Assembly: GCF_030063185.1 (NCBI RefSeq)
Contig: NZ_JASISP010000008.1
Span: 1 to 64,000, forward strand
Length of the DNA stretch: 64,000 nt
Source of the DNA: Arthrobacter sp. H35-D1
GTDB taxonomy: Bacteria > Actinomycetota > Actinomycetes > Actinomycetales > Micrococcaceae
Direction: 5' to 3'
Below are positions 79-52,992 of this stretch, piece after piece (position 1 is the first letter of the stretch; each line of letters opens with the position of its first letter). A program made the position numbers and the translations under genes. The notes below the pieces were generated by a model that worked only from the letters and a program-made list of their open reading frames with translations, was not told the DNA's origin and did no database searches.

Positions 79-80
79 AG

Positions 81-136: not shown

Positions 137-214
137 CACCTCATTCCGCACTAGACACGCCGACTTGACATCAAACACCACGGCCTAACCGAACGGCATT
201 GCCACTAATCCCCA

Positions 215-400
215 CTTGCCGGCCGGATAAATCGCTGAGGCGATTTATCCGGAACCTGGCAAGCGTGGGCCCATCCAGGCCCTCCCAACGCTAGCAAGCT
301 CGCGGCGGGGCCCTCGGGCGCGTGGGCCCAACCATCCGCTCCTCCCCAGTATGGTTCGTTGAGCGTGCCATACTGGGGCCCTCGGAGCTGTGGGCCCATC
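215..400. repeat. Cluster of GC-rich palindromic elements (family A, intergenic copies)
   Basis: Three hairpin units lie head to tail in the gene-free stretch before the transporter. A perfect 13-bp stem (CCGGATAAATCGC, 223-235, with 240-252) lies inside CTTGCC/GGCAAG. A second arm set AGCGT-GGG / CCCAACGCT brackets TGGGCCCATCC (264-294). CAGTATGG (347-354) pairs with CCATACTG (368-375). Stems are followed by a conserved block, GGGGCCCTCGG then GTGGGCCCA (308-331 and 374-397). The same block recurs twice after infB, and related cores sit inside coding sequence at 7.9, 13.6 and 16.4 kb. Bases 137-214 show nothing recognisable. Confidence 0.8.
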
Positions 401-480
401 CACGTATTAAGGAAGGCTTCGTACGGCGTCGGATTACGACGTCGGACGGGGCCTTTCGCGTGCCAGGCGGCGGTATGCCG

Positions 481-1686
481 CTAAGCGGGGGTGGTGGCCG
501 GATGCGGCTTTCGTGCCCGGCCGGCAGCGAGTGCCGAAGCCCCCTGCAAGACGGCGAGGGCCGCGACCAGGAGCAGCGAAGCCTGCCACCCTCCGGTCAC
601 TCGTGCGAAGTAACCTGCCGCTACGGGGCCCATGGCGGCAAAAAGGTAACCCACGGACTGTGCCATTCCAGAGAGCTGTGTGGTCTCTGCATGAGTGCGC
701 CCACGCAGGCTGATCAGGGTCAGCGCCACCACCAGTGAAGCCCCCGAACCGAGGCCGGCAACAACCGCCCATGCGATGCCCCACCCCGGATACAGCAGCA
801 ACCCGAGCGCGCCGACCAGCATGGGCACGCTGGCGGTGACGGCCGCCGCCACTTGGTTGTGCGGCCGGCGCATCATCCGCGGGATCGACAACCCGGAGAC
901 GATGCCCACTATCTGATACATGAAAAGGTGCAGCCCGGCTTGTTGGGCCGAGTTCCCGTTGGCGGTTTCGATAGTGGGCAGCCAGGTGACCATGATGTAA
1001 AACGTGGTGGACTGCAGGCCCATGAACGCGGTGACGAACCAGGCCGTGGACTGCCTCCACACGGTACCGACCGGGACCGTAGTCGGTAAAACGGAATCGC
1101 TGTCCGGGGACGCGGCGCGTGCGCGGGGCAACCATATGACGGCGGTCACCACTGCAGGTATGGCCCAAAACGCGAGCGAGCCCCGCCATCCCGTGCTTGT
1201 TGCCAGCGGGACGGCGACGGCGGATGCGATCGATGCGGAAATGGTGATGCACGCTGAATAGATGCTTGTGGCTCGGGAGATGCGGGTGACGTAGTCGCGC
1301 TTGACGAGGGTTGGCACCAGAACGTTGCCGATGGCGATCGCGCTGCCCACCACTATTGTTCCCAACCACAGACCAGGCGCCCCCGTGTAGGAACGGACCA
1401 CCGTGCCAACGGCCAGAAGTCCGAGTGCTATGAGGATGGTTCGTTCCATCCCAAGACGCCGCGAGACCAAGTGGACCAGCGGGGACACTGCGGCAAATGC
1501 CAGCAGCGGCAGTGCGCCCAACAAACCCTGGAGCCCCTCGTCCAGGTTCTCCTCCGCTCCAATGCTGGGCAGCAAAGGGCCCACTGCGGTCAAGGCCGGA
1601 CGGAGGTTCAACGCCACCAGGAAGACCAGCGAAACCATCACCGGCGTCATGGAAGCGGTCTTGGACATCCTGGGACCCGTGCTCAT
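481..1686 (-). CDS. MFS transporter, CynX/NimT-like
   Basis: A 401-residue, strongly hydrophobic protein with about twelve membrane segments. The N-terminal signature ALNLRPALTAVGPLLPSI is characteristic of the CynX/NimT branch of the major facilitator superfamily (cyanate and 2-nitroimidazole transporter family). Between helices 2 and 3 it has a SRRLGMERT loop, the family form of the MFS motif. The substrate cannot be read from the sequence; cyanate, small organic anions or drug efflux are all possible. The gene stands alone, transcribed away from the next gene pair, with the palindrome cluster just beyond its stop. Confidence 0.85.
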   Translation of the reverse strand: MSTGPRMSKTASMTPVMVSLVFLVALNLRPALTAVGPLLPSIGAEENLDEGLQGLLGALPLLAFAAVSPLVHLVSRRLGMERTILIALGLLAVGTVVRSYTGAPGLWLGTIVVGSAIAIGNVLVPTLVKRDYVTRISRATSIYSACITISASIASAVAVPLATSTGWRGSLAFWAIPAVVTAVIWLPRARAASPDSDSVLPTTVPVGTVWRQSTAWFVTAFMGLQSTTFYIMVTWLPTIETANGNSAQQAGLHLFMYQIVGIVSGLSIPRMMRRPHNQVAAAVTASVPMLVGALGLLLYPGWGIAWAVVAGLGSGASLVVALTLISLRGRTHAETTQLSGMAQSVGYLFAAMGPVAAGYFARVTGGWQASLLLVAALAVLQGASALAAGRARKPHPATTPA

Positions 1687-1846
1687 TGCTTCTTCATTTC
1701 GCAGCGGCTGTACATTAGCATGGCCTTTAGATTACCAACCTGGCACCCGGCCACGGCGCGCGGCACGGGGGAAGTCCGATGCCCCTGGCCGCACGAAAGA
1801 CCCCTCCCTGTGCCGGGAAGGGCCTTTGCTGCGGAGCATGACGGCC

Positions 1847-2578
1847 TTAGTGCTGATGGCCCTGGTTCTTGAGGTTTTGGATGTTGGCCGGTACTTGGTC
1901 GGTGTCTGTGACGCTGCTTTCATGGGCGCCGTGCTCGGAATGCGGCACGGCCAAGCCGCCCGCCGTGGAGGCGGCCATGCCGGCGCTCGCCACAGCCGCG
2001 ACAAGTACGGAAGCTGCGAACATGGTGCCAACCACTGTCATGGCCGAGTGTTGCTTGGCCCTCTTTCGATCAGTGGAACACCGCAAAGCCGTGTTGCGTT
2101 GCCATCCTATGATGGCGACGATGGAGAGCTCGAGCACCACGAGCGAAGCCAACGTGAGGTCAAACGTTCTCCCGGCCTCCGGCAATCGCCATAATCCCAC
2201 CAGCAACGCGACCAGATGGACGGCAGCGGCGACTGAGACCGTGAGCTGCAGGGTCTTGGCCGCCGGCAGTCGTCCTTGGCGAAACGATGCGAAACCATAT
2301 CCGAGAGCTGCGAGACCGTAGGCCGCCGAAGCCATTCCGGCTGCACCATTGCCCAAGAGGATCCACGACGGCGTGTCCAGGCCGGTAGCCTTCCCGCCGA
2401 GTCCCGGAATGAGACTGGATGCTGCGGCACTTGCCAAGGCTGCGACGCCCACCATGGCTATGCTGACGCACATCGAGCCGAGTTCGCTGCTGGGTTGGCC
2501 GAATACTGTGGCTTTCTGTAGCCGTGCAGTTCGCCTTCCACTCGCGGAGGGGACTGCCGGATGCTGGACGATCGCCAT
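1847..2578 (-). CDS. Membrane protein of unknown function with His-rich tail
   Basis: A 243-residue protein with about five hydrophobic segments. One, after residue 36, reads MCVSIAMVGVAALASAAASS; the last, before the tail, is AASVLVAAVASAGMAAS. A C-terminal tail contains PHSEHGAHE and ends GHQH, suggesting metal contact outside the membrane (inference). The start ATG lies two bases beyond the stop of the upstream DUF4383 gene, so the two are probably co-translated. An internal start at the MCVSIAM methionine is possible. No family is recognised. Confidence 0.65.
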   Translation of the reverse strand: MAIVQHPAVPSASGRRTARLQKATVFGQPSSELGSMCVSIAMVGVAALASAAASSLIPGLGGKATGLDTPSWILLGNGAAGMASAAYGLAALGYGFASFRQGRLPAAKTLQLTVSVAAAVHLVALLVGLWRLPEAGRTFDLTLASLVVLELSIVAIIGWQRNTALRCSTDRKRAKQHSAMTVVGTMFAASVLVAAVASAGMAASTAGGLAVPHSEHGAHESSVTDTDQVPANIQNLKNQGHQH

Positions 2579-2580
2579 GG

Positions 2581-2985
2581 CTAGGCGGACTGGAGTGTGC
2601 GTGCGCGGTCCTGGGAGAGACCGATCGCCAGCAGCACCAAGGCGCTGCCCAGGTGGAGGACGTTGTCGGCCCCGTTGAGGGCGATGATGTTCAATGCGGT
2701 TCCTGGCAGGAACAAGCCAACAATCCCCACCAGCAGGTAGACCAATCCGACCGTGGAGTTAACTGTCTTGGAGGCCTTGACCGAAGACAACCCGGCGATC
2801 AACAACGCAGCTCCAATGGCGAGGTGGATGACGTTGTGCAATGGGTTGACTTCAAAAATGATCAGATTTCGGCCTTCGGTGGCGAAGAACCCAATTCCGC
2901 TGGTGACAAAGAACCCCAAAACCCCTACCAGGAGGTAAACGGCGCCAAAGACGGTGGCAAGCAATCTGTTCGGTGAAGTGCGCAT
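2581..2985 (-). CDS. DUF4383 small membrane protein
   Basis: The 134-residue product starts MRTSPNRLLATVFGAVYLLVG and has four membrane helices. The family motif NPLHNVIHLAIGAALL is present, with a second copy-like NGADNVLHLGSALVLL near the end, as expected for DUF4383 proteins common in actinobacteria. An upstream extension of 31 residues is open, but the ATG chosen has AAAAGGA about ten bases before it and matches where the family begins. Function is unknown. It heads a two-gene unit with the following His-tailed membrane protein. Confidence 0.8.
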   Translation of the reverse strand: MRTSPNRLLATVFGAVYLLVGVLGFFVTSGIGFFATEGRNLIIFEVNPLHNVIHLAIGAALLIAGLSSVKASKTVNSTVGLVYLLVGIVGLFLPGTALNIIALNGADNVLHLGSALVLLAIGLSQDRARTLQSA

Positions 2986-3236
2986 GATGATAATCCTTTT
3001 CCCGGTGGCGGGAGAGACTTCCCGCCTTGTCCTGTGAGGGTCCAGGATGAACCCCTGTAGGTTCTTCGGAGCCGGCACAGGAATGGTTTGGATTGGCTGG
3101 GCACTTTTATTTTTTCGAGTTTGGGCAGCAACAACTGCGCGAGCCGGAACGGTGCCTTCTCGCTCAGTTTTTGCTTAGTTTCGCGTTGTTTCCCCGTTCT
3201 GCCGCGTCGTCGGGGAAGGGTTCCGTGCCGCCGGGC

Positions 3237-3548
3237 CTACTGTTCCAGCGATTCGGTCCGACCGGGGCACTGGCGCATCCAATGCACCAGCTTTTCGACA
3301 TCCGCCGGCATGGATTCGTCGGTGAAATGCAGGTCGCGCTGCTGCTCGCCCTCGTGCAGGGACACCTCGTACAGCTGCGCATCGGCTCGCTGCCCGGCAG
3401 GAACCGGGGGCTCCATGGTCCGCAACCCTGCACGATCCACCTCCGCTGCAAAGTCTTGTGCCTGGTCCGGCGGGAGGACGCTGGAGTCCACTGCCACGAC
3501 GGCCACCATGCCGGCAAATCCTCCGCCAATCCGCACTGTCAGTTTCAT
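3237..3548 (-). CDS. Emfourin-like protease inhibitor
   Basis: A small protein of 103 residues beginning MKLTVRIGGGFAGMVAVVAVD, with DAQLYEVSL and a helical end (ADVEKLVHWMRQC). This is the pattern of emfourin, the proteinaceous inhibitor of protealysin-like M4 peptidases known from Serratia proteamaculans. It directly follows the M4 peptidase gene on the same strand. The ATG chosen overlaps the peptidase stop as ATGA, which implies translational coupling; a start eight codons upstream is open but less likely. It is expected to bind and block the neighbouring protease in the cytoplasm. Confidence 0.8.
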   Translation of the reverse strand: MKLTVRIGGGFAGMVAVVAVDSSVLPPDQAQDFAAEVDRAGLRTMEPPVPAGQRADAQLYEVSLHEGEQQRDLHFTDESMPADVEKLVHWMRQCPGRTESLEQ

Positions 3549-4624
3549 GGCAGCACGCCCACTTCCCGCCAAGCACCCTCCACTGCCTGTGCTTCCGCGG
3601 TGCCATAGAGCGTCCCGGCAACTTCGACGGTGGACCGTGCCGCTTCGTCAAACTGGGTGTTGGCATGAAGTTTGGTGGTGAGCGTGCGGTACCAAATCTT
3701 TCCGGCCTGTTCCCATGCGTTCCCACCCATCTCCATCGCCGCGAGGTAGAAGGCGTGGTTGGGGATCCCGGAATTGATGTGTACCCCGCCGTTGTCGTTG
3801 CGGGGGTCATTGTCATCGGGAAGTTCCACGTAGTGATCCATGGTGGCTGGCTGGCGGTCCCCGGAATATGCAGTTCCCGGCGCTTTCATGGAGCGCAGCG
3901 CCTTCCCCAGCGACGGCACCAGCGCACCTTCCCCAATCAACCAGTCAGCTTCCAAGGCGGTCTGCTTGAGCGTGTACTGCTTCACGAGCGAGCCGAAAAC
4001 ATCCGAGAACGACTCGTTGAGGGCACCCGATTGCTTGCTGTAGGCGAGCCCGGCCGTGAACTCGGTGACCCCGTGGGTGAGTTCATGGCCAATCACGTCC
4101 AGCGCCCGGGTCAGGCCGCCGACCTGAAAGATCTGCCCGCTGCCGTCGCCGTAGACCATTTGCGTCCCGTCCCAGAACGCGTTGTCGTAGGCAACGCCGT
4201 AGTGGACGCTGGAGACCAACTCCATGCCGGCGTCGTCCAGGGAATTGCGGCCCATGACCCGTTGGTAAAAGTCGTAGGTCTCGGAGCTGCCGTCATAGGC
4301 CTCGTTGACGGACGTGTCCTTGCTGGCCGGCTCGCCCCAACCGCGTATCCGCACTCCGGGCAGGAACGTGCGTCCCTTCGTTTGGTTGTCATAGACGGTC
4401 AGGCGGCGGGTCGCTGAAATATTGAAGCCCACCAGTTGTCCCATGGGCAATCCGAACTGGCGGGTCAGCCGGCCCATGACGGCTCGTTGCTGGCGGAACG
4501 CGGCGGAGGTTGCGAGCGCCCGCACTGCGGCTTCCTTTTGGCCCGAGGTGCCGTCGATGGCGAGCTGCGCCAGCAAATCCGGAGGCGCAATGCTGCAGTG
4601 TGTGTGTTGGCGTCTGGAAAACAT
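3545..4624 (-). CDS. M4 family (protealysin-like) zinc metallopeptidase
   Basis: A 359-residue thermolysin-family peptidase. The zinc site is clear: H180-E181-x-x-H184 within VIGHELTHGVTEF and the third ligand E204 in NESFSDVFG. DNGGVHINSGIPNHAFY carries the catalytic histidine region of the C-terminal domain. There is no signal peptide. Instead the N-terminus has CSIAPPDLL, the short protealysin-type propeptide motif (Cys followed by a PP element), which points to the protealysin subgroup, known for cytoplasmic or non-classically released enzymes. Pairing with an overlapping emfourin gene supports this. Confidence 0.9.
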   Translation of the reverse strand: MFSRRQHTHCSIAPPDLLAQLAIDGTSGQKEAAVRALATSAAFRQQRAVMGRLTRQFGLPMGQLVGFNISATRRLTVYDNQTKGRTFLPGVRIRGWGEPASKDTSVNEAYDGSSETYDFYQRVMGRNSLDDAGMELVSSVHYGVAYDNAFWDGTQMVYGDGSGQIFQVGGLTRALDVIGHELTHGVTEFTAGLAYSKQSGALNESFSDVFGSLVKQYTLKQTALEADWLIGEGALVPSLGKALRSMKAPGTAYSGDRQPATMDHYVELPDDNDPRNDNGGVHINSGIPNHAFYLAAMEMGGNAWEQAGKIWYRTLTTKLHANTQFDEAARSTVEVAGTLYGTAEAQAVEGAWREVGVLP

Positions 4625-4745
4625 GGTCTTCCCCCTAGTGTGCGGTGACAGGCAGGTGCCTCAACGCTACGCCGCCGCTGCGAGAGTTGAAAGGGGCAGG
4701 CACGGGAAAAGGCTCCGCGAAGGGCACCCCACGAGACGTGCAGTC

Positions 4746-5225
4746 CTATTTGCCTTCAGTGCCCATGACGCGCCGGAGCAGCGGGTCAAGCCGAAACGGC
4801 ACGATTTCGTTCATGGCCAGCGAGGTTTCCGTCCGTTCGACCCCGTCGCATGCCAGAATCTTGCCATTGATCCGAAACAGGTCCTCGGCGCCCGTGGACG
4901 CAACACGCACCAGCAGGTCGGCCCGGCCGCTGAGCCCGTGAGCCTCCACCACCTCGGGGATGGCGGCCAGGGATGCGGTCAGCTCGCCGAGCTTTTGCTG
5001 CTGGACGTGGATGGAGATGAACGCGGTCAGGGGGTATCCGAGAGCTGCAGTGCTGATGCGGTGGTCAAAGTTCAAGAAGGCGCCGCGTTTCTCCAGCGAT
5101 GCCAGCCTGGCCTGGACCGTGTTGCGCGAAAGGCCAAGGTGCGCGGCCATGGCCACCACCGTCTGGCGGGAGTCCTCGCAGATGGCAAGCAGGATGCGTG
5201 CGTCGGTCCCGTCAAAAGTAGACAT
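4746..5225 (-). CDS. Lrp/AsnC family transcriptional regulator, possible bkd regulator
   Basis: A 159-residue protein from MSTFDGTDARILLAICEDSRQ. It has an N-terminal winged helix (AMAAHLGLSRNTVQARLASLEKRG) followed by the RAM ligand domain (TAFISIHVQQQ... DLLVRVAST). An upstream 17-residue extension is open but does not belong to the family. It is divergent from the branched-chain 2-oxoacid dehydrogenase genes, 143 bases away. That is the same arrangement as Pseudomonas putida BkdR, an Lrp-type activator responding to branched-chain amino acids. Control of bkdABC is therefore likely but inferred from position. Confidence 0.85.
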   Translation of the reverse strand: MSTFDGTDARILLAICEDSRQTVVAMAAHLGLSRNTVQARLASLEKRGAFLNFDHRISTAALGYPLTAFISIHVQQQKLGELTASLAAIPEVVEAHGLSGRADLLVRVASTGAEDLFRINGKILACDGVERTETSLAMNEIVPFRLDPLLRRVMGTEGK

Positions 5226-5304
5226 ACTGCGCAGAATAGCACGGTCGCCAGGCTGGAGACAGGGCAGAATGCTCAATTTTCGTGCCGGTTATTGCACCGC
5301 ATGC

Positions 5305-5323
5305 GTGACGTGAGTATCGTCAC
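5305..5323. promoter_or_regulatory. Inverted repeat between Lrp regulator and bkdA
   Basis: GTGACG and CGTCAC flank a 7-base spacer in the 143-base divergent region. The size and position suit a dimer-binding site for the Lrp-type protein. No further copy or clear promoter hexamers were confirmed. Confidence 0.35.
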
Positions 5324-5368
5324 CATTATCGACAAAGAAGTCGCGCCACTGACAAGGAGGCGAGCCAA

Positions 5369-6553
5369 ATGAGTGATCCACGCCAAGAGCCGGAGGACCA
5401 GGGGCCCATGCACATGCACCAACTCATTACCGCGGACGGGCAGCGTGTCGAAGACGAATTGCTCGAGGAATTCATTGCCGACGTTGACGATGAAACACTG
5501 CTGGGACTGTACCGGGACATGGTGGCGGTACGCCGCATCGACCGTGAAGCCACGGCCCTCCAACGTCAGGGGCAGCTGGCACTGTGGCCACCCATGCTCG
5601 GCCAGGAAGCGTCTCAAGTCGGGTCGGCCAGGGCCCTTGAAGCGGACGACTTCATCTTTCCCACCTACCGCGAAAACGGGGTGGCGTATTGCCGCGGGGC
5701 GCTTTTTTCGCAGATGATGGGCGTTTGGCGCGGCAATACCAACACTGGCTGGGATCCCTACGAGATCAACATGGCCACACCGCAAATTATCATCGGCGCG
5801 CAAACCCTCCACGCCGCCGGATACGCCATGGGCCTGGGTTTGGAGGGCAAGGAATCGCTTGCCATCGGCTATCTGGGCGACGGCGCAACAAGCCAGGGTG
5901 ATGTCCACGAGGCCATGGTCTTCGCCGCCAGTTTCCAGGCACCTGTCATTTTCTTTTGCCAAAACAACCACTGGGCCATCTCGGAACCCGTGGGCCTGCA
6001 ATCGTCCGTGCCCTTGGCCGGCCGCGCGCCCGGCTACGGCATCCCCAGTCTGCAAGTGGACGGAAACGACGTCCTGGCAGTTCTCGCCGCCACCCGTTGG
6101 GCCGCGGCCCGTGCCCGCTCCGGCGGCGGCCCCAGCTTCATCGAAGCAGTCACCTACCGCATGGGAGCCCACACCACCGCCGACGACCCCACCCGCTACC
6201 GTGGCGTCACCGAGTTGGAGGAATGGGGTGCCAAAGATCCCATCGCCCGGCTCAGGACCCTGTTGCAGGGCCGTGGGAAGCTCGACGCCGGAGCTGAAGC
6301 CGAGATTGCAACGACGGCCGACACCGTGGGGGCCGAGCTGCGGCAAGCCTGCATCAGCCTTCCGGATCCGGAGCCAATGAGCATTTTTGACAATGTTTAT
6401 GCCGACAGTCACGCCATCCTCGAACGCCAGCGCGACCACTACGAGAGGTACCTGGCAGGCTTTTTCGCCGCGGAACAGGGCCTTGGCACAAGCTCAAGCT
6501 CGGGTGCGGCAGGCACCAAGGGTGCAAGCACCATGGAAGGGAGCCGGCCATGA
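5369..6553 (+). CDS. bkdA: Branched-chain 2-oxoacid dehydrogenase E1 alpha
   Basis: A 394-residue thiamine-diphosphate enzyme subunit. The TPP and magnesium motif runs from GDGATSQGD (about residue 170) to FFCQNNHWAIS about 30 residues later, as in all E1 alpha chains. The phosphorylation-loop region YRMGAHTTADDPTRYR is conserved. The start is supported by AAGGAGG nine bases upstream. The last 30 residues are Ser/Gly/Ala-rich and unconserved. With E1 beta and E2 it decarboxylates the keto acids of leucine, isoleucine and valine. A pyruvate-specific role cannot be excluded, but the leucine-degradation genes downstream favour the branched-chain call. Confidence 0.88.
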   Translation: MSDPRQEPEDQGPMHMHQLITADGQRVEDELLEEFIADVDDETLLGLYRDMVAVRRIDREATALQRQGQLALWPPMLGQEASQVGSARALEADDFIFPTYRENGVAYCRGALFSQMMGVWRGNTNTGWDPYEINMATPQIIIGAQTLHAAGYAMGLGLEGKESLAIGYLGDGATSQGDVHEAMVFAASFQAPVIFFCQNNHWAISEPVGLQSSVPLAGRAPGYGIPSLQVDGNDVLAVLAATRWAAARARSGGGPSFIEAVTYRMGAHTTADDPTRYRGVTELEEWGAKDPIARLRTLLQGRGKLDAGAEAEIATTADTVGAELRQACISLPDPEPMSIFDNVYADSHAILERQRDHYERYLAGFFAAEQGLGTSSSSGAAGTKGASTMEGSRP

Positions 6554-7560
6554 GCCAGCTGACACTGACACAGTCCATCAACGCCGGACTGCGGCGAGCC
6601 ATGGAGGACGATCCCAAGGTTGTTTTGCTGGGTGAGGACATTGGCACCCTCGGAGGGGTGTTCCGCGTGACGGACGGGCTCATGAAGGATTTCGGCTCGC
6701 ACCGTGTCATCGACACGCCGCTGGCCGAATCAGCCATCATCGGCACCGCCGTGGGCTTGGCCTACCGAGGCTTCAGGCCCGTGTGCGAGATCCAGTTCGA
6801 CGGATTTATCTACCCGGGTTTTGACCAGATCGTGTCCCAAGTGGCCAAACTCCACGTCCGCACCCAGGGGAAGGTACGCATGCCGCTGACCATCCGCGTG
6901 CCCTTTGGTGGCGGGATCGGTTCGCCGGAGCACCACTCTGAATCTCCGGAAGCGTATTTTGTGCACACGGCAGGGCTGCGCGTGGTCAGTCCCTCCAACC
7001 CGCAGGATGCGTACACCATGGTGCGCCAAGCCATCGCCAGCGACGATCCCGTCCTCTACTTTGAACCCAAGCGCCGCTACCACGCCAAGGGCGACGTGGA
7101 CTTGGAAGCGGACTTGGGTGCTGCCCCGGCACTGGGCTCGGCACGCGTGGCGGCCGCCGGCACCGATGTCACCTTGGTGGCCTACGGGGCCATGCTGAAA
7201 ACAGCGCTCGACGCCGCCAGTGCCGCAGCCGAGGAAGGCATCTCGATCGACGTCGTGGACCTGCGCTCGCTCTCGCCGGTGGACTATGTCCCGCTGATGG
7301 AGTCGGTGCGGCGCACCGGAAGGCTTGTCATCGCCCACGAAGCCTCCCAGACGCTGGGACTCGGCGCGGAGATCGCCGCCACCATCACTGAACGCTGCTT
7401 CAACTACCTTGAGACGGCCCCCGTGCGGGTCACCGGCTTTGACGTGCCCTACCCGCCCTCCAAGCTGGAAAAGCACCACCTTCCGGACCTTGACAGGATT
7501 CTTGACGGCGTTGACTGCGCCTTGGGCCGGACCAACTCACGCACAGGCATGGAGGACTGA
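6550..7560 (+). CDS. bkdB: Branched-chain 2-oxoacid dehydrogenase E1 beta
   Basis: A 336-residue transketolase-like subunit. Recognisable family blocks are LLGEDIGTLGGVFRVT, DTPLAESAIIGTAVGLA, PFGGGIGSPEHHSESPE and, near the end, FDVPYPPSKLEKHHLPDLDRI. The ATG overlaps the E1 alpha stop (ATGA), so the two subunits are translationally coupled and made in equal amounts for the heterotetramer. The E2 gene follows two bases after the stop. Confidence 0.9.
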   Translation: MSQLTLTQSINAGLRRAMEDDPKVVLLGEDIGTLGGVFRVTDGLMKDFGSHRVIDTPLAESAIIGTAVGLAYRGFRPVCEIQFDGFIYPGFDQIVSQVAKLHVRTQGKVRMPLTIRVPFGGGIGSPEHHSESPEAYFVHTAGLRVVSPSNPQDAYTMVRQAIASDDPVLYFEPKRRYHAKGDVDLEADLGAAPALGSARVAAAGTDVTLVAYGAMLKTALDAASAAAEEGISIDVVDLRSLSPVDYVPLMESVRRTGRLVIAHEASQTLGLGAEIAATITERCFNYLETAPVRVTGFDVPYPPSKLEKHHLPDLDRILDGVDCALGRTNSRTGMED

Positions 7561-7562
7561 CA

Positions 7563-9056
7563 ATGCAGGTTCAATTCCGGCTCCCGGATCTTGGCGAAGG
7601 CCTCACCGAATCAGAAATCGTCAGTTGGCACGTTTCCGTGGGCGACGCCGTGGAACTCAACCAAGTTATTGCCGAGGTGGAAACCGCAAAAGCGGTGGTG
7701 GAACTACCCTCGCCCTACACCGGCACCGTCAGCGCCATTGCGCACGAACCGGGCACTGTGGTTGAAGTGGGTGAAGTCATCATCGAGTTTGACGTCGCAG
7801 GCGATTCCGGTTCCGCGGAGGATGCCGGCGCCGGCTCCGTCCGAGATGGGGACCCCGCCCGTCCCCAGCCCCGCCCCAACCTCGCAAGCTCGGCGGGGGG
7901 CCCCGGGGACCGTGGCCCCATCGCGGACGCCCGAAGCCGCTCCCGGGTTCCCATCTCGGACTCCGTCGGCGCGGAGCCCGAGACCGACGACGAGCCGAAG
8001 CGGGTGCCCACGCTTGTGGGCTACGGCGCCGATCCGGAATCGTCCGCCAAGCCCGTGCGCAGGGCACGGACAGTGACCGCCGCTGCGCCGGAGCGAAAGG
8101 CGGATGAGGCTCCGGTACAAGCGGACCGGCCTCGGTCCACGCCGCCGGTGCGCAAGCTGGCCCGCGACCTGGGTGTTGGTCTGGAACAGATGACCGGCAC
8201 AGGGGAACGGGGACTGATCACGCGCGACGACGTACTCACTTTTGTCGGCGACCACAACGAAAATGCCGCCGACAACACAGCCGGCGGTTCGGGCGTGGAC
8301 GCGGTGGCGGCTCCGGCGTCGGACGTGAAAGCCCGGGACAACGACGGGGACCTGGCGCGGGAAGTGCGCACCCCCGTCAAGGGCGTGCGCAAGTTCATGG
8401 CGCAGGCAATGGTGGAAAGTGCTTTTACCGCCCCGCATGTCAGCGAATTCCTGACCGTGGACGTCACGGCAGGCATGGACTTTCTAGCGAAGTTGCGCTC
8501 GCAGCCGGAGTTTTCCGCTCTCAAGGTGACCCCGTTGACGCTGGCTGCCAAGGCCGTCACGCTGGCGATTGCCCGGCACCCGGCGCTGAACTCGCACTGG
8601 GACGAGGAAGCCCAAGAGGTGGTGTCGTTCAACTACCTGAACCTCGGCATTGCCGCCGCGACGCCACGGGGACTTGTGGTGCCGAACATCAAGGACACCC
8701 AGGCGTTGGGGCTGCGCGGATTGGCCGTCGCGCTGGGGGAGTTGGCGGAAACGGCAAGGGCAGGGAAAACGGCCCCTGCGGATTTGGCCGGAGGCACGTT
8801 CTCCATCACCAATATCGGGGTGTTCGGCATCGACGCCGGCACGCCCCTGCTGAATCCGGGCGAGGCCGGCATCCTGGCACTGGGAGCCGTGCGCCGCATG
8901 CCGTGGGAACACGAGGGCACCGTGGCGCTGCGACAGGTGATGACGCTGAGTTTGTCCTTTGATCACAGGCTTGTGGACGGCGCCCAAGGCTCCCGTTTCC
9001 TGGCAGATGTGGGAGCGGTCATGGCAGACCCTGCCATGGCACTGGTGCTCGGCTGA
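7563..9056 (+). CDS. bkdC: Dihydrolipoamide acyltransferase E2 of the branched-chain complex
   Basis: A 497-residue protein with the standard E2 order. The lipoyl domain occupies residues 1-80, with the lipoylated lysine at 43 in VETAKAVVE. The peripheral subunit-binding domain starts near residue 191 (STPPVRKLARDLGVGLEQM). The catalytic domain ends with the active site DHRLVDG (His 468, Asp 472). The linker between lipoyl and binding domains is unusually long. Residues about 93-133 are encoded by a palindromic GC-rich element with 16-bp inverted ends, apparently an in-frame insertion. No E3 gene follows; the complex must use a dihydrolipoyl dehydrogenase encoded elsewhere. Confidence 0.92.
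   Translation: MQVQFRLPDLGEGLTESEIVSWHVSVGDAVELNQVIAEVETAKAVVELPSPYTGTVSAIAHEPGTVVEVGEVIIEFDVAGDSGSAEDAGAGSVRDGDPARPQPRPNLASSAGGPGDRGPIADARSRSRVPISDSVGAEPETDDEPKRVPTLVGYGADPESSAKPVRRARTVTAAAPERKADEAPVQADRPRSTPPVRKLARDLGVGLEQMTGTGERGLITRDDVLTFVGDHNENAADNTAGGSGVDAVAAPASDVKARDNDGDLAREVRTPVKGVRKFMAQAMVESAFTAPHVSEFLTVDVTAGMDFLAKLRSQPEFSALKVTPLTLAAKAVTLAIARHPALNSHWDEEAQEVVSFNYLNLGIAAATPRGLVVPNIKDTQALGLRGLAVALGELAETARAGKTAPADLAGGTFSITNIGVFGIDAGTPLLNPGEAGILALGAVRRMPWEHEGTVALRQVMTLSLSFDHRLVDGAQGSRFLADVGAVMADPAMALVLG
7840..7960. repeat. Palindromic element inside bkdC (family A, coding copy)
   Basis: TCCGAGATGGGGACCC (7840-7855) and GGGTTCCCATCTCGGA (7945-7960) form 16-bp inverted ends with one mismatch. 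The 89 bases between contain GCAAGCTCGG, then GGGGCCCC and GTGGCCCCA (7883-7920), aligning with the intergenic family A core at 294-331. It reads through in frame and supplies an Arg/Pro/Gly/Ala-rich stretch to the E2 linker, where extra residues should be tolerated. Confidence 0.7.
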
Positions 9057-9162
9057 AACGCGGCCCCAATGCAACACAAAGACTCTTCAAAAGCTGTCCA
9101 TTCGGACGTATATTTTAAGTGACCCCCACTGTGGGAGCCAACTCATGAGGAGGTTGGTAACA

Positions 9163-9531
9163 ATGAAGAGGTGGAATCGCTGGCAGGACTATGTGGCCGT
9201 GATTGCAGGCCTGTACGCCGCCCTGGCAACACTCTGGACAACACAGCAGGCAAGCTCCATGGTGATGATGATTGGAGTTGGCGTACTGCTGATCATCGCC
9301 GGTGTTTGGAACCTGATGGGCACCGTGCAACCGGTGGCCGAATGGATTCTATTGCTGCTTGGCGCGCTCTTGTTCATCTCGCCGTGGATTGCAGGCTACA
9401 CCGTGCACACCGGAGCAACCTGGACGTCATGGATTGCCGGTGCCATTGCGTTGATTGTTGGGGTTCTTGCCCTGCAGCCAAGCATGCACAAGGGCACGTC
9501 ACATCATCACGGAGGTGCAACGGCCCACTGA
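9163..9531 (+). CDS. SPW-repeat membrane protein
   Basis: A 122-residue protein starting MKRWNRWQDYVAVIAG, with four membrane helices and the motif LLFISPWIAGY that defines SPW repeat proteins. The tail is His-rich (TSHHHGGATAH). AGGAGG nine bases before this ATG makes it the best start; an ATG six codons earlier is open. Function of the family is unknown. It is a monocistronic gene between the bkd operon and a strong terminator. Confidence 0.8.
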   Translation: MKRWNRWQDYVAVIAGLYAALATLWTTQQASSMVMMIGVGVLLIIAGVWNLMGTVQPVAEWILLLLGALLFISPWIAGYTVHTGATWTSWIAGAIALIVGVLALQPSMHKGTSHHHGGATAH

Positions 9532-9609
9532 TGACCCTGCATGAAATTCATTGAAACTGTTCAAGGAGTGGTCGTTCCAGACACAGCCCAAGGGCAGTGC
9601 ATGTGGCTG

Positions 9610-9634
9610 GGAAGCGCCGGAGACCGGCGCTTCC
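9610..9634. terminator. Rho-independent-type hairpin after the SPW gene
   Basis: GGAAGCGCCGG and CCGGCGCTTCC form a perfect 11-bp stem with a 3-base loop, followed by CTTTCGCTTTC. It lies between convergent genes (SPW protein and TetR regulator) and can serve both directions. Confidence 0.75.
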
Positions 9635-9663
9635 CTTTCGCTTTCAATCGCCTTTTCCGATTT

Positions 9664-10266
9664 TCAATCCGGCGGCACGGCCCCAGTCAGCGCCGCCCAC
9701 GCCATCGCTTCGAGCATGGAGGTGGCTGCTGCAGCCGTGCGGCCGTGGATGCGCACGCTGTGCGGGGTCGAGTTGATCAGCCCAAAGACGGCGTGGGCCT
9801 GCAGCCGGCGCAGCGCGGCTTCGCGTTCGGGAAACAACTGCCCGAGCACGTCCACCCAGAGCTCCACATAAGCGCGCTGCAGTGAGCGCACTGCCGTGCT
9901 GTCCTGCTCGCCCAGACTGTCAAAATCCCTGTCCTGCACACGGATGACATCGGGCTGTGCCACGGCGAAATCAACGTGGAAGGCGACCAGCGCGTGCAAG
10001 CAGGCATCGGCGTCGGAAGCGGTTTGGACAACGGCGCGCCCGCCGTCCAGCAGGTCCTCGCTGACCCCCACCAGCAGGGCTCCTAGCAGTGCCTGTTTGC
10101 CATTGAAGTGCCTGTACACGGCCGGACCGCTGACCCCGGCCGCAGCTCCGAGGTCTTCGATGGAGACACCGTTGAAGCCGCGGCGGGCAAAGAGGGACGC
10201 GGCGGAAGCGAGCAGCACCGAGCGGCGCATGGCCTTGGCCTGGGTGCGGGTGGTTGTCGGCTGCAT
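9664..10266 (-). CDS. TetR family regulator of the acyl-CoA carboxylase operon
   Basis: A 200-residue protein from MQPTTTRTQAKAMRRSVLLAS. The N-terminal helix-turn-helix is typical of TetR proteins (FNGVSIEDLGAAAGVSGPAVYRHFNGKQALL). The remainder is an all-helical ligand and dimer domain. Fourteen further upstream codons are open. It diverges from the accD1 operon with an AT-rich operator-like region between them. In M. tuberculosis the matching locus also carries a TetR gene (Rv2506). An acyl-CoA or similar intermediate is the likely effector (inference). Confidence 0.85.
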   Translation of the reverse strand: MQPTTTRTQAKAMRRSVLLASAASLFARRGFNGVSIEDLGAAAGVSGPAVYRHFNGKQALLGALLVGVSEDLLDGGRAVVQTASDADACLHALVAFHVDFAVAQPDVIRVQDRDFDSLGEQDSTAVRSLQRAYVELWVDVLGQLFPEREAALRRLQAHAVFGLINSTPHSVRIHGRTAAAATSMLEAMAWAALTGAVPPD

Positions 10267-10334
10267 GGGACCCTTGCTCCTATTTCCCGTTCGTGTGCTG
10301 GACATCACCGGGAGGACGGACTAACCTGAAATTC

Positions 10335-10367
10335 AGTTAGTAACTATTAACTTAGTTAGTATTAACT
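10335..10367. promoter_or_regulatory. Tandem AGTTA..TAACT operator-like palindromes
   Basis: Two palindromic sites lie back to back in the divergent TetR-accD1 region. The first has AGTTA (10335-10339) paired with TAACT (10347-10351). The second is AGTTAGTATTAACT (10354-10367). The stretch is strikingly AT-rich for this genome. It probably binds the divergent TetR protein and overlaps both promoters. Confidence 0.6.
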
Positions 10368-10400
10368 CAGTGTAGCGGCGATGACGTCAATGAGGGGTCA

Positions 10401-12008
10401 ATGGAGACTTTGCAGAGCCAAGTGGAACCGACCGGAGCGGTCTTTGTCCGCAATGCCGCCCAGCAGCGCGCCTTGGCCGCACAATTGCGTGAAACGTTGC
10501 GCACCACGGCGCTGGGCGGGCCGGAAAAATCCCGTGAACGCCATGTGGCACGCGGCAAGGTGCTCCCGCGGGAACGCGTGGACCGCCTGCTCGATCCGGG
10601 CAGCCCATTCCTTGAAGTCGCACCGTTGGCGGCCCACAAAATGTACGACGGCGCGTCCCCCGGCGCCGGGGTCATCGCCGGCATCGGGCTGGTCCACGGC
10701 CGCCACGTGATGGTGCTGTGCAACGACGCCACCGTCAAGGGCGGAACGTACTACCCGATGACGGTGAAAAAGCACTTGCGCGCGCAGGAAATCGCGTTGG
10801 AAAGCCGTTTGCCCTGCATCTACCTGGTGGACTCCGGCGGCGCGTTCCTGCCCATGCAAGATGAAGTGTTTCCGGACAAGGAGCACTTTGGCCGGATCTT
10901 CTTCAACCAGGCCAAGATGTCCGCGGCCAAGATTCCGCAGATCGCCGCCGTCATGGGCTCCTGCACGGCCGGGGGAGCCTACGTGCCGGCCATGAGCGAT
11001 GAAACGGTCATTGTGCGCAACCAGGGCACTATCTTTCTCGGCGGACCACCGCTGGTGAAGGCCGCCATTGGCGAGATTGTCACGGCGGAGGAACTCGGCG
11101 GCGGCGACGTCCACGCCGGCATCTCCGGCGTGGTGGACCACTTGGCGGAAAATGACGACCACGCCCTGGCGATCATCCGCGACATCGTGGCCACGCTGCC
11201 TCCCAACCCAACCCCCGCGTGGGCTGTGGCGGCGGGCGAACCGCCCGCAGCGGATTCCGCACAACTTTACGGTGCAGTGCCCACGGACCTGAACACCCCC
11301 TACGACTGTCGCGAGATCATCGCCCGGCTGGTGGACGGCAGCAAGTTCCACGAGTTCAAGAAGAACTACGGCACCACGCTTGTCACGGGGTTCGCCACGC
11401 TGCACGGGCACCCCGTGGGCATTGTGGCCAACCAGGGCGTACTGTTCAGCGAATCGGCGTTGAAAGGCGCACACTTCATCGAATTGTGCGACCAGCGCGG
11501 CATCCCGCTCATCTTCCTGCAAAACCTCAGCGGCTTCATGGTCGGGAAGGACTACGAGCACGGCGGCATTGCCAAGCACGGTGCCAAGATGGTCACGGCA
11601 GTTGCCACCGCCCGCGTCCCCAAGCTGACGGTCATTGTGGGCGGATCCTTCGGCGCCGGCAACTACTCCATGTGCGGTCGCGCCTACAGCCCCCGCTTCC
11701 TCTGGACGTGGCCGGCGTCGCGCATCTCCGTCATGGGCGGCAACCAGGCCTCCTCGGTGCTGGCCACCGTCAAGCGCGAGCAGCACGAACGCCGCGGAGA
11801 AGACTGGTCCGTCGCCGCCGAAGACGCCTTCAAGGCCCCCGTCCTGGCCCAGTTTGAAGACCAGGGCAGCCCCTACTACGCCACCGCCCGACTCTGGGAC
11901 GACGGCATCATCGACCCCGCCGACACCCGCACAGTCCTCGGGCTGGCACTGGATGTGTGCGCCAGGACCCCGCTGCCGGAAACCTCCTTCGGCCTCTTTA
12001 GGATGTGA
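10401..12008 (+). CDS. accD1: Acyl-CoA carboxylase carboxyltransferase (beta) subunit, methylcrotonyl-CoA type
   Basis: A 535-residue carboxyltransferase. Conserved blocks include [20 protein letters not shown] near the start, [18 protein letters not shown] in the N-terminal crotonase fold and [19 protein letters not shown] in the C-terminal half; the last is strongly reminiscent of methylcrotonyl-CoA carboxylase beta. It starts at ATG behind TGAGGGG. With the biotin subunit encoded next (4-base overlap) it carboxylates 3-methylcrotonyl-CoA in leucine breakdown. Propionyl- or acetyl-CoA specificity cannot be strictly excluded. Confidence 0.88.
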
Positions 12009-14368
12009 GCCCCTTGACGCCACCCTCCACCGCCCCGGATGCAACCCTGTCTGACGCGCCGAAAATCAGCCAGCCACCATCCAGCCAACCGCTTTTTGAC
12101 ACAGTATTGGTGGCCAATCGCGGCGAAATTGCCTGCCGCATCATCTCCACCTTGAAGGTACTGGGCATCCGCTCGGTGGCCGTGTATTCCGAGCCCGACG
12201 CCGGAGCCCGCCACGTGCGCGAAGCCGACGCGGCGCTGTGCATAGGTCCCGCAGCAGCCGCCGAAAGCTACCTGAACATTGCCGCCATTGTTGCCGCCTG
12301 CCGCGAATCCGGTGCCGAGGCCGTGCACCCGGGCTACGGGTTCCTGTCCGAAAACCAAGGGTTTGCGCAGGCGCTCAAGGACGCCGACATCACATTCATC
12401 GGGCCCAACGTCGAGGCTTTGAACGTCATGGGTGACAAGATTCGCTCCAAGAACCACGTGGGAGCCGCCGGGGTTCCGCTGGTGCCCGGAATCGCCAAGC
12501 CTGGCTTGAGCGACGCCGACTTGATCGCAGCCGCGCAGGATATTGGCTTTCCGCTGCTCATCAAGCCGTCCGCCGGGGGTGGCGGCAAGGGCATGCACAA
12601 TGTTTTCTCGGCGCAGGAGCTGCCAGCTGCGCTTGCCACCGCCCGGCGGGTGGCCACCGCTGCCTTTGGCGATGACACGTTGTTCCTTGAACGCCTGGTG
12701 GCCAATCCCCGGCACATTGAAGTGCAGATTCTCGGGGACAACTTTGGGAACATCGTCCACCTGGGCGAGCGCGAATGCTCCCTGCAGCGCCGCCATCAAA
12801 AGGTCATCGAAGAGGCCCCCTCGCCGCTGCTGACAGACATGGCCGACGGCGCTGCCGTCCGGGCCCGGATCGGTGCCGCCGCGTGTGCTGCTGCCGCCAG
12901 CGTGGACTACACCGGAGCCGGGACGGTCGAGTTCCTCGTCTCCAACGACAGGCCCGACGAGTTCTTCTTTATGGAAATGAACACCCGCTTGCAGGTGGAG
13001 CACCCGGTCACCGAAATGGTGGCCCGGGTGGCAGGGGAGCCGCTGGACCTGGTGCAATGGCAGCTGCGCATTGCCGCCGGGGAGCCACTGACTTTCAGCC
13101 AGGACGAGGTCGCCGCCGAAGGCCACGCCATGGAAGCCCGGGTCTACGCCGAAAATCCGGCACAGGGATTCCTGCCTTCTACCGGAACGGTCGTGGTGCT
13201 TGACGAGTCGGTGGCAGGCCGCCCGGGCGTGCGCGTGGACAGTTCCTTGTTGCAGGGGCTGGAAATCTCCGCCGACTACGACCCCATGCTGGCCAAGGTC
13301 ATCGCCTGGGGGACAGACCGGGAGCAGTCGTTGGGGCGCTTGGACGCCGCCCTGCGCGACTACGTGGTGCTGGGCGTGCCCACCAACGTGGAGTACCTCC
13401 GCCTGCTGCTCGCCGACCCCGACGTCCACGCCGGGCGCTTGGATACCACGCTCATTGAACGCAAGCTCCCGGAATTGGCGTTCCGCACCCTGGACGCCGG
13501 CGACTACGCAGCCGCAGCCCTCCTGACACGGGCGTCGGCGGACCGCTCCCCGGCTGCGGACCGGCATTCCCTCGGCGGGGCCCACTGGCGCGAGGGCCCC
13601 GTTGCGGGCTTGCGAGCAATGGGAGCGCCTGGGGACTATCCGACCTTCGGCCGTGAGCGGCCTCTGGTCTCCTTTACGCCGCCTACGGGAACGCCGGCTC
13701 CTCTGCCGGTGTTCCCGTGGTCGCCGGCGGTGGAGACCAGCCCGTGGGGCCGCACCGACGGCTGGCGGCTTGGTGATGCTGCTCCGTGGCGGCTCGCGTT
13801 TGCCGGGGGTGGGCGCACCGGCGTGGTGACGGTCAGCGGGAGCCGGCGTGGGGCAGCTGCGGGAGGGCCCGGCGTCGTACATGTCAGCGGGGAGGAGTTG
13901 GCGGATGACGGCGAGCACACGGCAGCGCTGAGCGTTTCCGGCACCGCCGCAGAACTGGCGTGGGACGGGGAAACACGGCACTACAGGATGGCCCGCAACG
14001 GCGCCGAAGTACTGCTGGGCAGTGGCGGATGGACGGCGTCCGTGCAGTTGCTTGGCCGGGATGCTGCCACGGCACGGATGCTTGCCGGCCTTGAACGCGC
14101 CGATGCGGCTGCCGATCCGCAGGTGCGCAGCCCCATGCCCGGCACCGTGACAATGCTCAATGTCAGCACCGGGGACAAGGTTGAGGCCGGTGCAGTGCTG
14201 CTCGCCGTGGAGGCCATGAAGATGGAGCACCAACTCGTGGCGTCCATCGCCGGGACGGTGCACGTCGGTGTTGCCGTCGGCGCACTGGTCAAGGCCGACC
14301 AGGTGGTGGCCACGATTGTCCAGGAGCTCGCAGATGCACCCCATGAAAAACTTGCCAAGGAATCGTGA
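12005..14368 (+). CDS. accA1: Acyl-CoA carboxylase biotin carboxylase/BCCP (alpha) subunit
   Basis: A 787-residue biotin-dependent carboxylase subunit started by GTG overlapping the accD1 stop. The biotin carboxylase domain ([16 protein letters not shown] near residue 31, ATP loop [11 protein letters not shown], active-site [17 protein letters not shown] and [14 protein letters not shown]) fills the first 480 residues. The C-terminal biotinyl domain carries the biotin lysine 739 in EAMKMEH. The protein is over 100 residues longer than typical family members. Part of the excess is a linker (about residues 520-580) that contains an inverted copy of the palindromic family A core. Confidence 0.9.
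13577..13740. repeat. Palindromic element inside accA1 (family A, inverted coding copy)
   Basis: GGGGCCCACTGGCGCGAGGG (13577-13596), then CCCCGTTGCGGGCTTGCGAG (13597-13616), is the reverse complement of the family A core at 294-331 with scattered changes. It is followed by nested stems. CTGGTCTCC (13664-13672) pairs with GGAGACCAG (13732-13740). Inside it, CGGGAACGCCGGC (13686-13698) pairs with GCCGGTGTTCCCG (13705-13717), one mismatch. All of it is read in frame as interdomain linker. Outer ends are not sharply defined. Confidence 0.6.
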
Positions 14369-14379
14369 AAGGAAACAAC

Positions 14380-15543
14380 GTGCCCAACTTTGAACTCAAC
14401 GAGGAGTACCAGGCGCTCAGCGACATGGTCCGCGACTTTGCCGACCGTGTGGTTGCCCCGGTTTCGGCCAAGCACGATGCAGAACACAGCTTCCCGTATG
14501 AGATCGTGGCGCAAATGGGGGAGCTGGGCTTGTTCGGGCTGCCGTTCCCGGAGGAGTTTGGGGGCATGGGCGGGGACTACTTCGCCCTGGCCCTGGCCTT
14601 GGAGCAGCTGGGACGGGTGGACCAGTCGGTCGCCATCACCCTCGAGGCCGGAGTGTCACTCGGCGCCATGCCCGTGCACCGCTTCGGCACACAGCAGCAA
14701 AAGGAGGCATGGCTGCCGCAGCTGACCAGCGGTGCGGCACTGGCGGGCTTTGGTTTGACCGAGCCCGACGCCGGGTCCGACGCCGGGCGCACTTCCACCC
14801 GGGCGCAGCTGCAGGACGGGGAATGGGTCATTGACGGCAACAAGCAGTTCATCACCAACTCCGGAACGAACATCACCACGTTCGTCACAGCGACAGCCGT
14901 GACCGGCACTTCCGAACGCAAGGACGGCTCGGTGAAGAAGGAGATCTCCACCATCATCGTGCCCAACGGCACTCCGGGATTCACAGTGGAGAAGCCCTAC
15001 AACAAGGTGGGTTGGAACGCTTCCGACACGCACCCGCTGACCTTCACCAACGCCCGTGTGCCGGAGGGAAACCTGCTGGGCGAGCGGGGCCGCGGCTACG
15101 CCAACTTCCTGTCCATCCTTGACGAGGGGCGCATTGCCATCGCTGCGCTGGCCACGGGGACCGCGCAGGGGTGCGTGGATGAAGCCGCCCGCTATGCCAA
15201 GGAACGCCACGCCTTTGGTCATAATATTGGCCACTACCAGGGCATCTCCTTCAAAATTGCGCGCATGCAAAGCCGCGCGCATCTGGCCCGGCTGGCCTAC
15301 TACGACGCCGCCTCGCGCATGCTTGCAGGCAAACCCTTCAAGACCGAGGCGGCCATCGCTAAGATGGTCGCAAGCGAGGCGGCCATGGACAACGCCCGGG
15401 ACGCCACGCAGGTTTTTGGCGGCTACGGGTTCATCAACGAGTTCGTCGTGGCCCGCCACTACAGGGATTCAAAGATCTTGGAGGTGGGGGAAGGCACCAC
15501 GGAAGTCCAATTGATGCTCATTGCCCGCGACCTGGGCTTGTAA
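14380..15543 (+). CDS. Acyl-CoA dehydrogenase of the leucine-degradation operon
   Basis: A flavoprotein dehydrogenase of 387 residues from GTG (MPNFELNEEYQALSDMVRDFA). AAAGGAA sits six bases upstream; a GTG five codons earlier overlaps the accA1 stop and is the alternative. The signatures GFGLTEPDAGSDAG and ATQVFGGYGFINEF are typical. A glutamate occurs in the C-terminal EVGEGTTEVQ, the position of the catalytic base in short- and medium-chain enzymes; isovaleryl-CoA dehydrogenases instead use an earlier helix, where this protein reads LDEGRIAIA. By position it corresponds to M. tuberculosis FadE19 and probably oxidises isovaleryl-CoA or a related branched acyl-CoA. Confidence 0.88.
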   Translation: MPNFELNEEYQALSDMVRDFADRVVAPVSAKHDAEHSFPYEIVAQMGELGLFGLPFPEEFGGMGGDYFALALALEQLGRVDQSVAITLEAGVSLGAMPVHRFGTQQQKEAWLPQLTSGAALAGFGLTEPDAGSDAGRTSTRAQLQDGEWVIDGNKQFITNSGTNITTFVTATAVTGTSERKDGSVKKEISTIIVPNGTPGFTVEKPYNKVGWNASDTHPLTFTNARVPEGNLLGERGRGYANFLSILDEGRIAIAALATGTAQGCVDEAARYAKERHAFGHNIGHYQGISFKIARMQSRAHLARLAYYDAASRMLAGKPFKTEAAIAKMVASEAAMDNARDATQVFGGYGFINEFVVARHYRDSKILEVGEGTTEVQLMLIARDLGL

Positions 15544-15567
15544 CCCTTTTTCGAAAGGAACTCCGCC

Positions 15568-16482
15568 ATGATCAACAAAGTAGTTGCCTCACCGGCCGCG
15601 GCCGTCCACGACATCCACGACGGCGCCTCGCTGGCGGTAGGGGGCTTTGGCCTGTGCGGCATCCCCGTGGCCCTCATCCAAGCCCTCCATGACGCCGGCA
15701 CCTCCGGACTGGAAACCGTCTCCAACAATTGCGGCGTCGACGACTGGGGCCTGGGCATCCTGCTGAGCGATGGCCGCATCCGCCGCACCATCTCCTCCTA
15801 CGTGGGGGAGAACAAGGAGTTTGCCCGCCAATTCCTGGCCGGCGAGCTTGAAGTCGAGCTCACCCCGCAGGGCACGCTCGCCGAAAAGCTGCGGGCAGGC
15901 GGAGCCGGCATCCCCGCCTTCTACACGGCCGCCGGAGTGGGCACCCAGGTCAGCGAGGGCGGCCTGCCGCGCAAGTACGACGGCGCCGGGGGCGTTGAGC
16001 TTGCCTCGCCGCCGAAGGAGGTGCGCACCTTTGGCAACGCCGAATTTGTCCTGGAGGAATCCCTGACCCCGGATTTTGCCCTCGTCCATGCATGGAAGGG
16101 CGACGCCCACGGCAACCTGGTGTTCCACGCCACCGCCATGAACTTCAACCCGCTCTGCGCCATGGCAGGGCAGATCACCATCGCCGAAGTGGAGGAACTT
16201 TTTGAACCCGGCGAGCTCGACCCCGAACACATCCACGTGCCGGGCATCTTCGTCCAACGCGTGGTCCATGTCCCGGCCGGCACGCCCGGCAGTGAGAAGC
16301 GCATCGAAAAGCGAACTGTTGCAGGTGGCCAAAGCCCCGATGGGGTGCCGGGAGCACGTGACCCGCTTCCCCAATCTTCGCAAGCTCAGACTGGGCCCCT
16401 CAGCGGGACACTTTCGGGCGTCCGCGAAGCGGGCGGGCACCCCATCGGGGCGACGGCCACTGCAACCGGACAGGAGGCATGA
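15568..16482 (+). CDS. scoA: 3-oxoacid CoA-transferase subunit A with repeat-encoded C-terminal extension
   Basis: The first 250 residues are a standard CoA-transferase A chain: [49 protein letters not shown] and RIEKRTV near the normal end. ATG follows AAAGGAA. Residues from about 256 to 295 of 304 are encoded by a 116-bp palindromic element with perfect 15-bp inverted ends, so the natural C-terminus has apparently been replaced or lengthened. With subunit B it moves CoA between succinyl-CoA and acetoacetate (or a related acid), the last step of ketogenic leucine catabolism. Confidence 0.88.
16335..16450. repeat. Palindromic element inside scoA (family A, coding copy)
   Basis: CCCCGATGGGGTGCC (16335-16349) and GGCACCCCATCGGGG (16436-16450) are perfect 15-bp inverted ends. 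A second nested stem, CCCGCTTC (16362-16369) with GAAGCGGG (16426-16433), lies inside. The centre contains TCGCAAGCTCAGACTGGGCC (16378-16397), related to the GCAAGCTC..GGGGCCC core of the other copies. It is read in frame and ends nine codons before the scoA stop. Confidence 0.72.
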
Positions 16483-52850: not shown

Positions 52851-52863
52851 TCCCCACGCCCTC

Positions 52864-52992
52864 CCAAGGTTGGCTCGCTAGCGAGCCAACCTTGGGGCCC
52901 TCGGGCGCGTGGGCCCATCAAGTGCTCCCAGAGTGAGGTCGCGAGTGACCTTACTTCGGGGCCCTCGGGCGCGTGGGCCCATCAAGTGCTCC
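52864..52992. repeat. Two palindromic family A units between infB and rbfA
   Basis: A perfect 32-bp palindrome (CCAAGGTTGGCTCGC and its complement, 52864-52895) is followed by a 35-base block starting GGGGCCCTCGG and holding GTGGGCCCATC (52894-52928). A second stem (AGTGAGGTC with GACCTTACT, 52932-52955) is followed by an identical 35-base copy (52958-52992). The same block occurs before the first gene of the window, 52.5 kb away. In this position the stems may attenuate transcription into rbfA. Confidence 0.88.

Follow-up and report, generated by a model that had tools for sequence, protein, structure and literature searches.

The nested insert in bkdC

The window, i.e., the whole 64,000-nucleotide stretch of Arthrobacter sp. 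H35-D1 analyzed here, carries a gene bkdC (7563..9056, + strand), which encodes the 497-aa E2 component of the branched-chain 2-oxoacid dehydrogenase and was identified from its open reading frame (ORF) and the Pfam domains Biotin_lipoyl, E3_binding, and 2-oxoacid_dh in its product. The lipoyl domain (residues 4-75) and the E3-binding domain (residues 191-225) flank a linker that contains an insert, and these Pfam positions, together with the 497-aa ORF, agree with the original prediction that an element lies between the lipoyl and subunit-binding domains and is open in the coding frame. The 16-bp inverted ends with one mismatch that it described were also recovered (arms 7840-7855 and 7945-7960), and the inverted repeat extends further, to 7828-7855/7945-7972 (28 nt, 82%). 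Folding of 7838-7962 beat all 200 shuffles (z -3.76).

The insert had been taken for one 121-bp unit, which is wrong, as it consists of two nested elements of different families, element A (7862..7920) lying within element B (7828..7972), both on the + strand. The left arm of B (7828..7855) comprises an outer stem (7828-7835), an internal loop (7836-7839), and an inner stem (7840-7855), and the right arm (7945..7972) mirrors it with an inner stem (7945-7960), an internal loop (7961-7964), and an outer stem (7965-7972); this arm architecture is common to 21 B copies. Between the arms lies a 32-nt core that is split by A into a left piece, CGCCCG (7856..7861), and a right piece (7922..7944), as delimited by core matches and by comparison with the uncut B in the bkdC genes of two sister genomes, G016 and G020. 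Element A, which is 59 bp long in this copy and was delimited by its family model and the sister comparison, starts with TCCCCA, ends with GTGGCCCCA, and has the loop CTCGCAAGCTCG.

The core motif of the insert was predicted to be shared with repeats elsewhere, and this holds: the window contains a single occurrence of its gapped pattern (0.00 expected from 100 shuffles), and the best other match of the insert in its own genome has an E value of 8.4e-11. A model R1, built from 18 own-genome A copies, scores 7861-7921 at E 3.1e-10, the bkdC copy itself being among the 18 seeds. The proposed kinship with the intergenic repeat at 294-331 stands for A and fails for B, to which the inverted ends belong as its arms. 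That repeat is contained in an intergenic A copy (272..330, + strand, R1 71.0 bits), followed in tandem by a weak A copy (332..399, + strand, R1 30.7 bits, E 0.0116).

The E2 linker among relatives

The E2 linker was compared across the 23 genus genomes and read in 22 of them, i.e., all except G012. Our genome has B and A, G016 and G020 have B only, and 19 relatives have neither. In G016 and G020, the B core is uninterrupted and bkdC is 57 nt (19 codons) shorter than ours, in frame. An alignment of bkdC from relatives had been suggested as a check, and it showed the segment to be absent at a clean place, with the insertion in frame; instead of an ordinary linker conserved in all related E2 proteins and without copies elsewhere, 19 empty relatives were found. 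B thus dates from the common ancestry of our genome and its two sisters, and because the sisters carry B alone and the 19 relatives neither, B came first and A later (or the sisters lost A), with the frame kept both times.

The linkers of the genus E2 proteins differ in length and sequence, which would be expected if the insert were merely a fast-evolving linker with chance palindromes. Such an explanation is hardly credible and is refuted by the homologous copies at many loci, the two boundaries, and the sister intermediate with B alone. As well, a pre-existing hairpin was considered as the target of B and is not needed in E2, the B-less relatives having no such hairpin by eye; for intergenic copies, it may still apply.

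Element families A and B

Within the genus, A is present in many copies and B in few. With R1, the own genome gives 76 matches when the cutoff is E<=10 and 58 when it is E<=0.01, and each of the 23 genus genomes has A matches, from 12 to 104 per genome (up to 150 candidates scored per genome). Across the family Micrococcaceae, A is patchy, with matches at E<=1e-4 in at least 70 of 295 genomes and at least 10 of 32 genera (17 candidates scored per genome). The exact gapped A pattern, searched over 84,980 species, was found in 58 stretches, which are labeled Arthrobacter (49), Specibacter (4), Psychromicrobium (2), and Sporosarcina beigongshangi (3); Specibacter and Psychromicrobium are both Micrococcaceae. 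The record "Sporosarcina beigongshangi REN13" with A (L222, L261, and L267) is probably mislabeled or contaminated, its contigs having the same lengths as contigs of the genus member G015.

The A unit is 57-71 bp long, and its stems are hypervariable between copies yet paired. In a MAFFT alignment, which was not fitted to the structure, 83.0% of the model pairs were formed versus 69.6% in shuffled and at most 49.7% in slid alignments, and doubly changed cells numbered 40 versus 17.2 in shuffles. In a structure-fitted alignment of 101 copies, the corresponding values were 91.6% versus 74.4% shuffled, and 245 versus 73.5 cells. Two counts stayed at the level of shuffles, namely that of doubly changed pairs (7 versus 6.7 with MAFFT, 8 versus 8.2 for the 101 copies) and that of pair types (23 versus 20.4 and 34 versus 32.1, respectively). 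Some A copies form a subtype whose inner hairpin is longer, and all nine own loci with A inside genes have the short type. Rfam 15 covariance models gave no match at the gathering threshold across 12 loci, and on window positions 1-20000 they gave one sub-threshold match, located elsewhere than the insert. Weak A-like arrays with regular spacing were also noticed at G000:C11:615209-615506 (91 nt) and G000:C22:143420-143612 (63 nt), with E values from 0.0125 to 2.2.

Allowing at most two mismatches, 23 matches to the B core were counted in 11 of the 23 genus genomes, and the reversed-pattern control occurs 0 times. In 21 B copies that lack a nested A, pairing reaches 89% in the inner stem (57% in shuffles) and only 59% in the outer stem, and the arms have a median identity of only 33% between copies. 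In two own B copies, the site at which an A-like core is nested differs from that in bkdC; one of them is the second B copy of the window (16334..16451, - strand), in which the A-like core occupies 16363-16406 on the + strand.

A copies inside genes

Nine loci of the own genome carry A in frame inside genes, namely bkdC, lhr, nei/fpg, purC, thiolase, cysD, pta, pyrF, and paaC, the hosts being confirmed by Pfam. One preferred frame among many in-gene copies had been named as support for a mobile coding element, and no such frame was found: five loci use sense frame 0, two use sense frame 2, and two are antisense, namely nei/fpg, which carries two A copies in tandem, and pyrF; in addition, pta of G007 reads A in frame 1. 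The likeness to Rickettsia palindromic elements (RPE) that was originally proposed holds for in-frame insertion at at least nine conserved-gene loci with copies elsewhere, whereas genes are the minority site of A and its main site is behind stop codons.

Presence and absence were compared among nine relatives (eight for pta). The lhr insert is confined to the own genome, with all nine relatives empty, and no target duplication was seen at its junction, which was the cleanest among those inspected by eye. At nei, G003 has two A copies, G001 one, and G015 a remnant; A is present at cysD in G003, at thiolase and pyrF in G016 and G020, at pta in G016 and, in a different frame, G007, and at paaC in several relatives, while purC has shortened forms in G011, G021, and G001. 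In pyrF and paaC, whose start codons are not assigned with certainty, the inserts are amino-terminal, and the paaC insert starts at the overlapping paaB stop.

The hairpin in E2 might also be kept for a nucleic-acid function in the coding sequence, e.g., as a pause or processing site. Consistent with such a function, fourfold sites are more conserved in B of E2 than in its gene (15/16 versus 148/238, p 0.013) and in A of thiolase than in its gene (18/18 versus 58/84, p 0.005), and the outer stem of B in E2 shows one C-G to T-A double change between our genome and G016. Against it, the numbers are small, A in pta shows no excess conservation (5/9 versus 42/55), the A copy of E2 forms 11 of 16 model pairs, the fewest among the nine in-gene copies, and 19 relatives lack both elements. 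We regard this function as unlikely for E2; more generally, a nucleic-acid role inside genes may or may not exist, as fourfold sites are unusually conserved in B of E2 and A of thiolase and are not in A of pta.

A copies behind stop codons

A pattern scan that did not require stops yielded 59 A copies, 52 of which lie directly 3' of a stop codon on the same strand (43 TAG, 6 TAA, and 3 TGA); in 48 of these, the stop is in frame with the gene that precedes it. In the own genome, 28 of 60 A copies directly follow an in-frame stop, two of them with a weak coding signal. Examples from the window are an A copy at 13576..13636 (- strand, R1 73.7 bits) directly 3' of a TAG, where the coding signal of the upstream ORF is weak, and an A copy at 52851..52917 (+ strand, R1 54.0 bits) directly 3' of the TAG stop (52848-52850) of a gene that we read as infB. 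A second tandem copy (52918..52981, + strand) resembles the single copy of G016 at that place, and a terminator-like hairpin follows at 52991-53022 (0.4 expected by chance in the scan), so that both A copies stand between stop and hairpin. In this tandem (52848-53022), the newer-looking copy is on the stop-codon side.

Stop statistics were based on 611 coding ends from loci fetched around the elements, with the neighbors there as controls. For stops with a sense A within 330 nt, the distance is 0 in 65 of 85, and for antisense A in 1 of 29. TAG is enriched before A (48/67 versus 181/544 controls, p 2.3e-9), and so is CTAG (36/67 versus 85/544, p 3.5e-11); C precedes TAG at 36 of 48 A copies versus 85 of 181 controls, and GTAG precedes only 5 of the 48 TAG-following copies. 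Targeting of plain double-stranded CTAG is disfavored, because CTAG is palindromic and predicts both orientations, yet antisense copies at distance 0 are so rare; a strand-specific enzyme would still fit.

To compare orthologues in G016, 26 of the 28 in-frame post-stop copies were sought, i.e., all except L080 and L090, which have the weak coding signal. In the 25 resulting pairs, the protein ends at the same position with or without A; L078 is absent from them, though G016:C83:901-1059 matches and an A match starts at 1059. Judged by eye, G016 has A in 10 pairs (one with the hairpin lost), a partial A in 5, and none in 10. A as supplier of the stop codon is thereby ruled out, because the orthologous proteins end at the same length in either state. 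A role of A as terminator was likewise rejected: the next gene is co-directional after A as often as in controls (44/62 versus 337/475, p 1.0), and the infB locus has a terminator-like hairpin of its own downstream of A.

The names infB, sigA, manC, and dapA are provisional readings of the sequences. Full A copies were found by regular expression at infB in 4 of 22 genomes, sigA in 5 of 21, manC in 8 of 20, and dapA in 8 of 21, counts that include our genome, leave out G018, and miss some shortened copies (e.g., dapA of G022); at infB, a full A was accordingly not found in 18 of 22 genomes by this expression.

These results bear on the possibility that A is a functional 3'-UTR RNA element behind the stop, acting on the terminating ribosome or the mRNA end, with the in-gene copies as by-products. 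The exact, sense-only stop adjacency, the excess of TAG and CTAG, and a structure kept while stems vary are consistent with it, and in the available part of one report, E. coli REPs less than 16 nt from the stop reduce translation (PMC12306157). On the other side, A is patchy even at the four favored genes, 10 of 25 G016 orthologues lack it, and the orientation of the downstream gene equals that of controls. We consider such a role conceivable, if tentative, and less probable than not having one.

Mobilizer and mechanism

The Y1 transposase domain Y1_Tnp (PF01797) occurs in 2 of the 23 genus genomes, one of the two being ours, in which no A copy was seen at the transposase. The search of our genome and the 23 genus genomes for PF01797, the only family searched, gave no transposase or other mobilizer of A. 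The own Y1 transposase (L276 1459-3143) adjoins a divergent 406-aa TnpB-like ORF and looks, by eye, like IS200/IS605. A could in principle be of the REP type, related to GTAG REPs and mobilized by a RAYT (Y1 tyrosine transposase), as it is a palindrome flanked by (C)TAG, and GTAG REPs often supply TAG stops, some within ORFs, according to the accessible text of PMC3733652. This relation is very unlikely in our judgment: the PF01797 search found no RAYT-type transposase in 21 of 23 genomes, by which a RAYT is rejected as general mobilizer and A is no standard REP, and moreover GTAG is rare before A and the unit measures 59-71 bp, not 20-40.

Instead, the insert most probably represents two short non-autonomous, hairpin-forming mobile elements that were inserted successively into the E2 linker and work like RPE or REP. 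We infer that A spreads by copying, which would proceed via an enzyme. It would usually land in sense orientation immediately 3' of a stop codon, leaving gene and terminator unharmed, and a copy landing in an ORF might survive if the frame is kept and if the loop, linker, or terminus it enters can accommodate some 19 additional residues. Such survival is possible because most short own copies are stop-free in any frame (24/40 in all six frames and 33/40 in all three sense frames). In E2, A would be translated as additional linker residues, which probably affect the enzyme little. Several observations stand against the mobile-palindrome reading: the shared or degraded in-gene sites (purC, thiolase, and pyrF) indicate age and not current mobility, a purely neutral insert does not predict the fourfold-site conservation found for B of E2 and for A of thiolase, a mobilizer was not found in the PF01797 search, lhr shows no target duplication, and the A copy of E2 is poorly paired.

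A more specific proposal is that A is anchored to stop codons, its insertion or retention being coupled to translation termination, with in-gene copies off-target and B enterable by A. New copies would then enter at the first nucleotide after the stop, in sense, with UAG preferred and protein and terminator intact. This proposal is rather doubtful; if true, it would make A either a mobile element or a 3'-UTR RNA that spreads itself, with a target set by the reading frame, not by DNA sequence alone.

Comparison with known systems

RPE are palindromic, have open frames, and add peptide to unrelated conserved genes through in-frame insertion, as described in the consulted portions of PMC10969869 and PMC2229807. 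Going by those descriptions, A is similar in being a multi-copy palindromic repeat that lies in frame in unrelated conserved ORFs and is absent from relatives. Compared by description and not by sequence, RPE measure 105-150 bp in these partial sources, versus 57-71 bp and hypervariable paired stems in A, and, unlike RPE as described there, A uses several frames and sits chiefly behind stops; one conserved peptide frame, as in RPE, was not found, A being read in frames 0 and 2, antisense, and, in pta of G007, frame 1. In-ORF palindromes are known outside Rickettsia too, in several genera, according to part of PMC3733652, and a literature search limited to open-licence papers found no coding-invading family described for Micrococcaceae, in line with the original prediction.

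The same portion of PMC3733652 describes GTAG/CGTC-tagged REPs as palindromes of 20-40 bp near gene ends, which often provide TAG stops and in some cases lie in ORFs. A is likewise a palindrome near gene ends; unlike in those REPs, CTAG is the prevailing tag, A-less orthologues already have the stop, no RAYT-type transposase is present in 21 of 23 genomes, and its 57-71 bp unit has neither their length nor their GTAG/CGTC tag. Among E. coli REPs, 446 of 4,072 are within 15 nt of a stop in the excerpt of PMC12306157; A resembles these in placing a hairpin close to the stop and differs from what is described there in its distance of exactly 0 and its fixed start TCCCC. Bacterial MITEs (RUP, Correia/NEMIS, and ERIC) are short and non-coding, with inverted ends and some in-frame fusions, as far as the partial text of PMC2229807 describes them. 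A is alike in these features. Unlike in MITEs, no TA ends were seen in A; at the lhr junction no target duplication was seen, and no cognate IS was found by the PF01797 search.

The bkdC insert probably behaves like RPE or REP, and A lies chiefly at the precise point where a reading frame ends, which raises the question of how a short DNA finds a stop codon. With A, free-living Actinomycetota join the bacteria that harbor selfish in-frame palindromes in conserved enzymes, and the sister genomes preserve both the intermediate step, B alone, and the empty sites.
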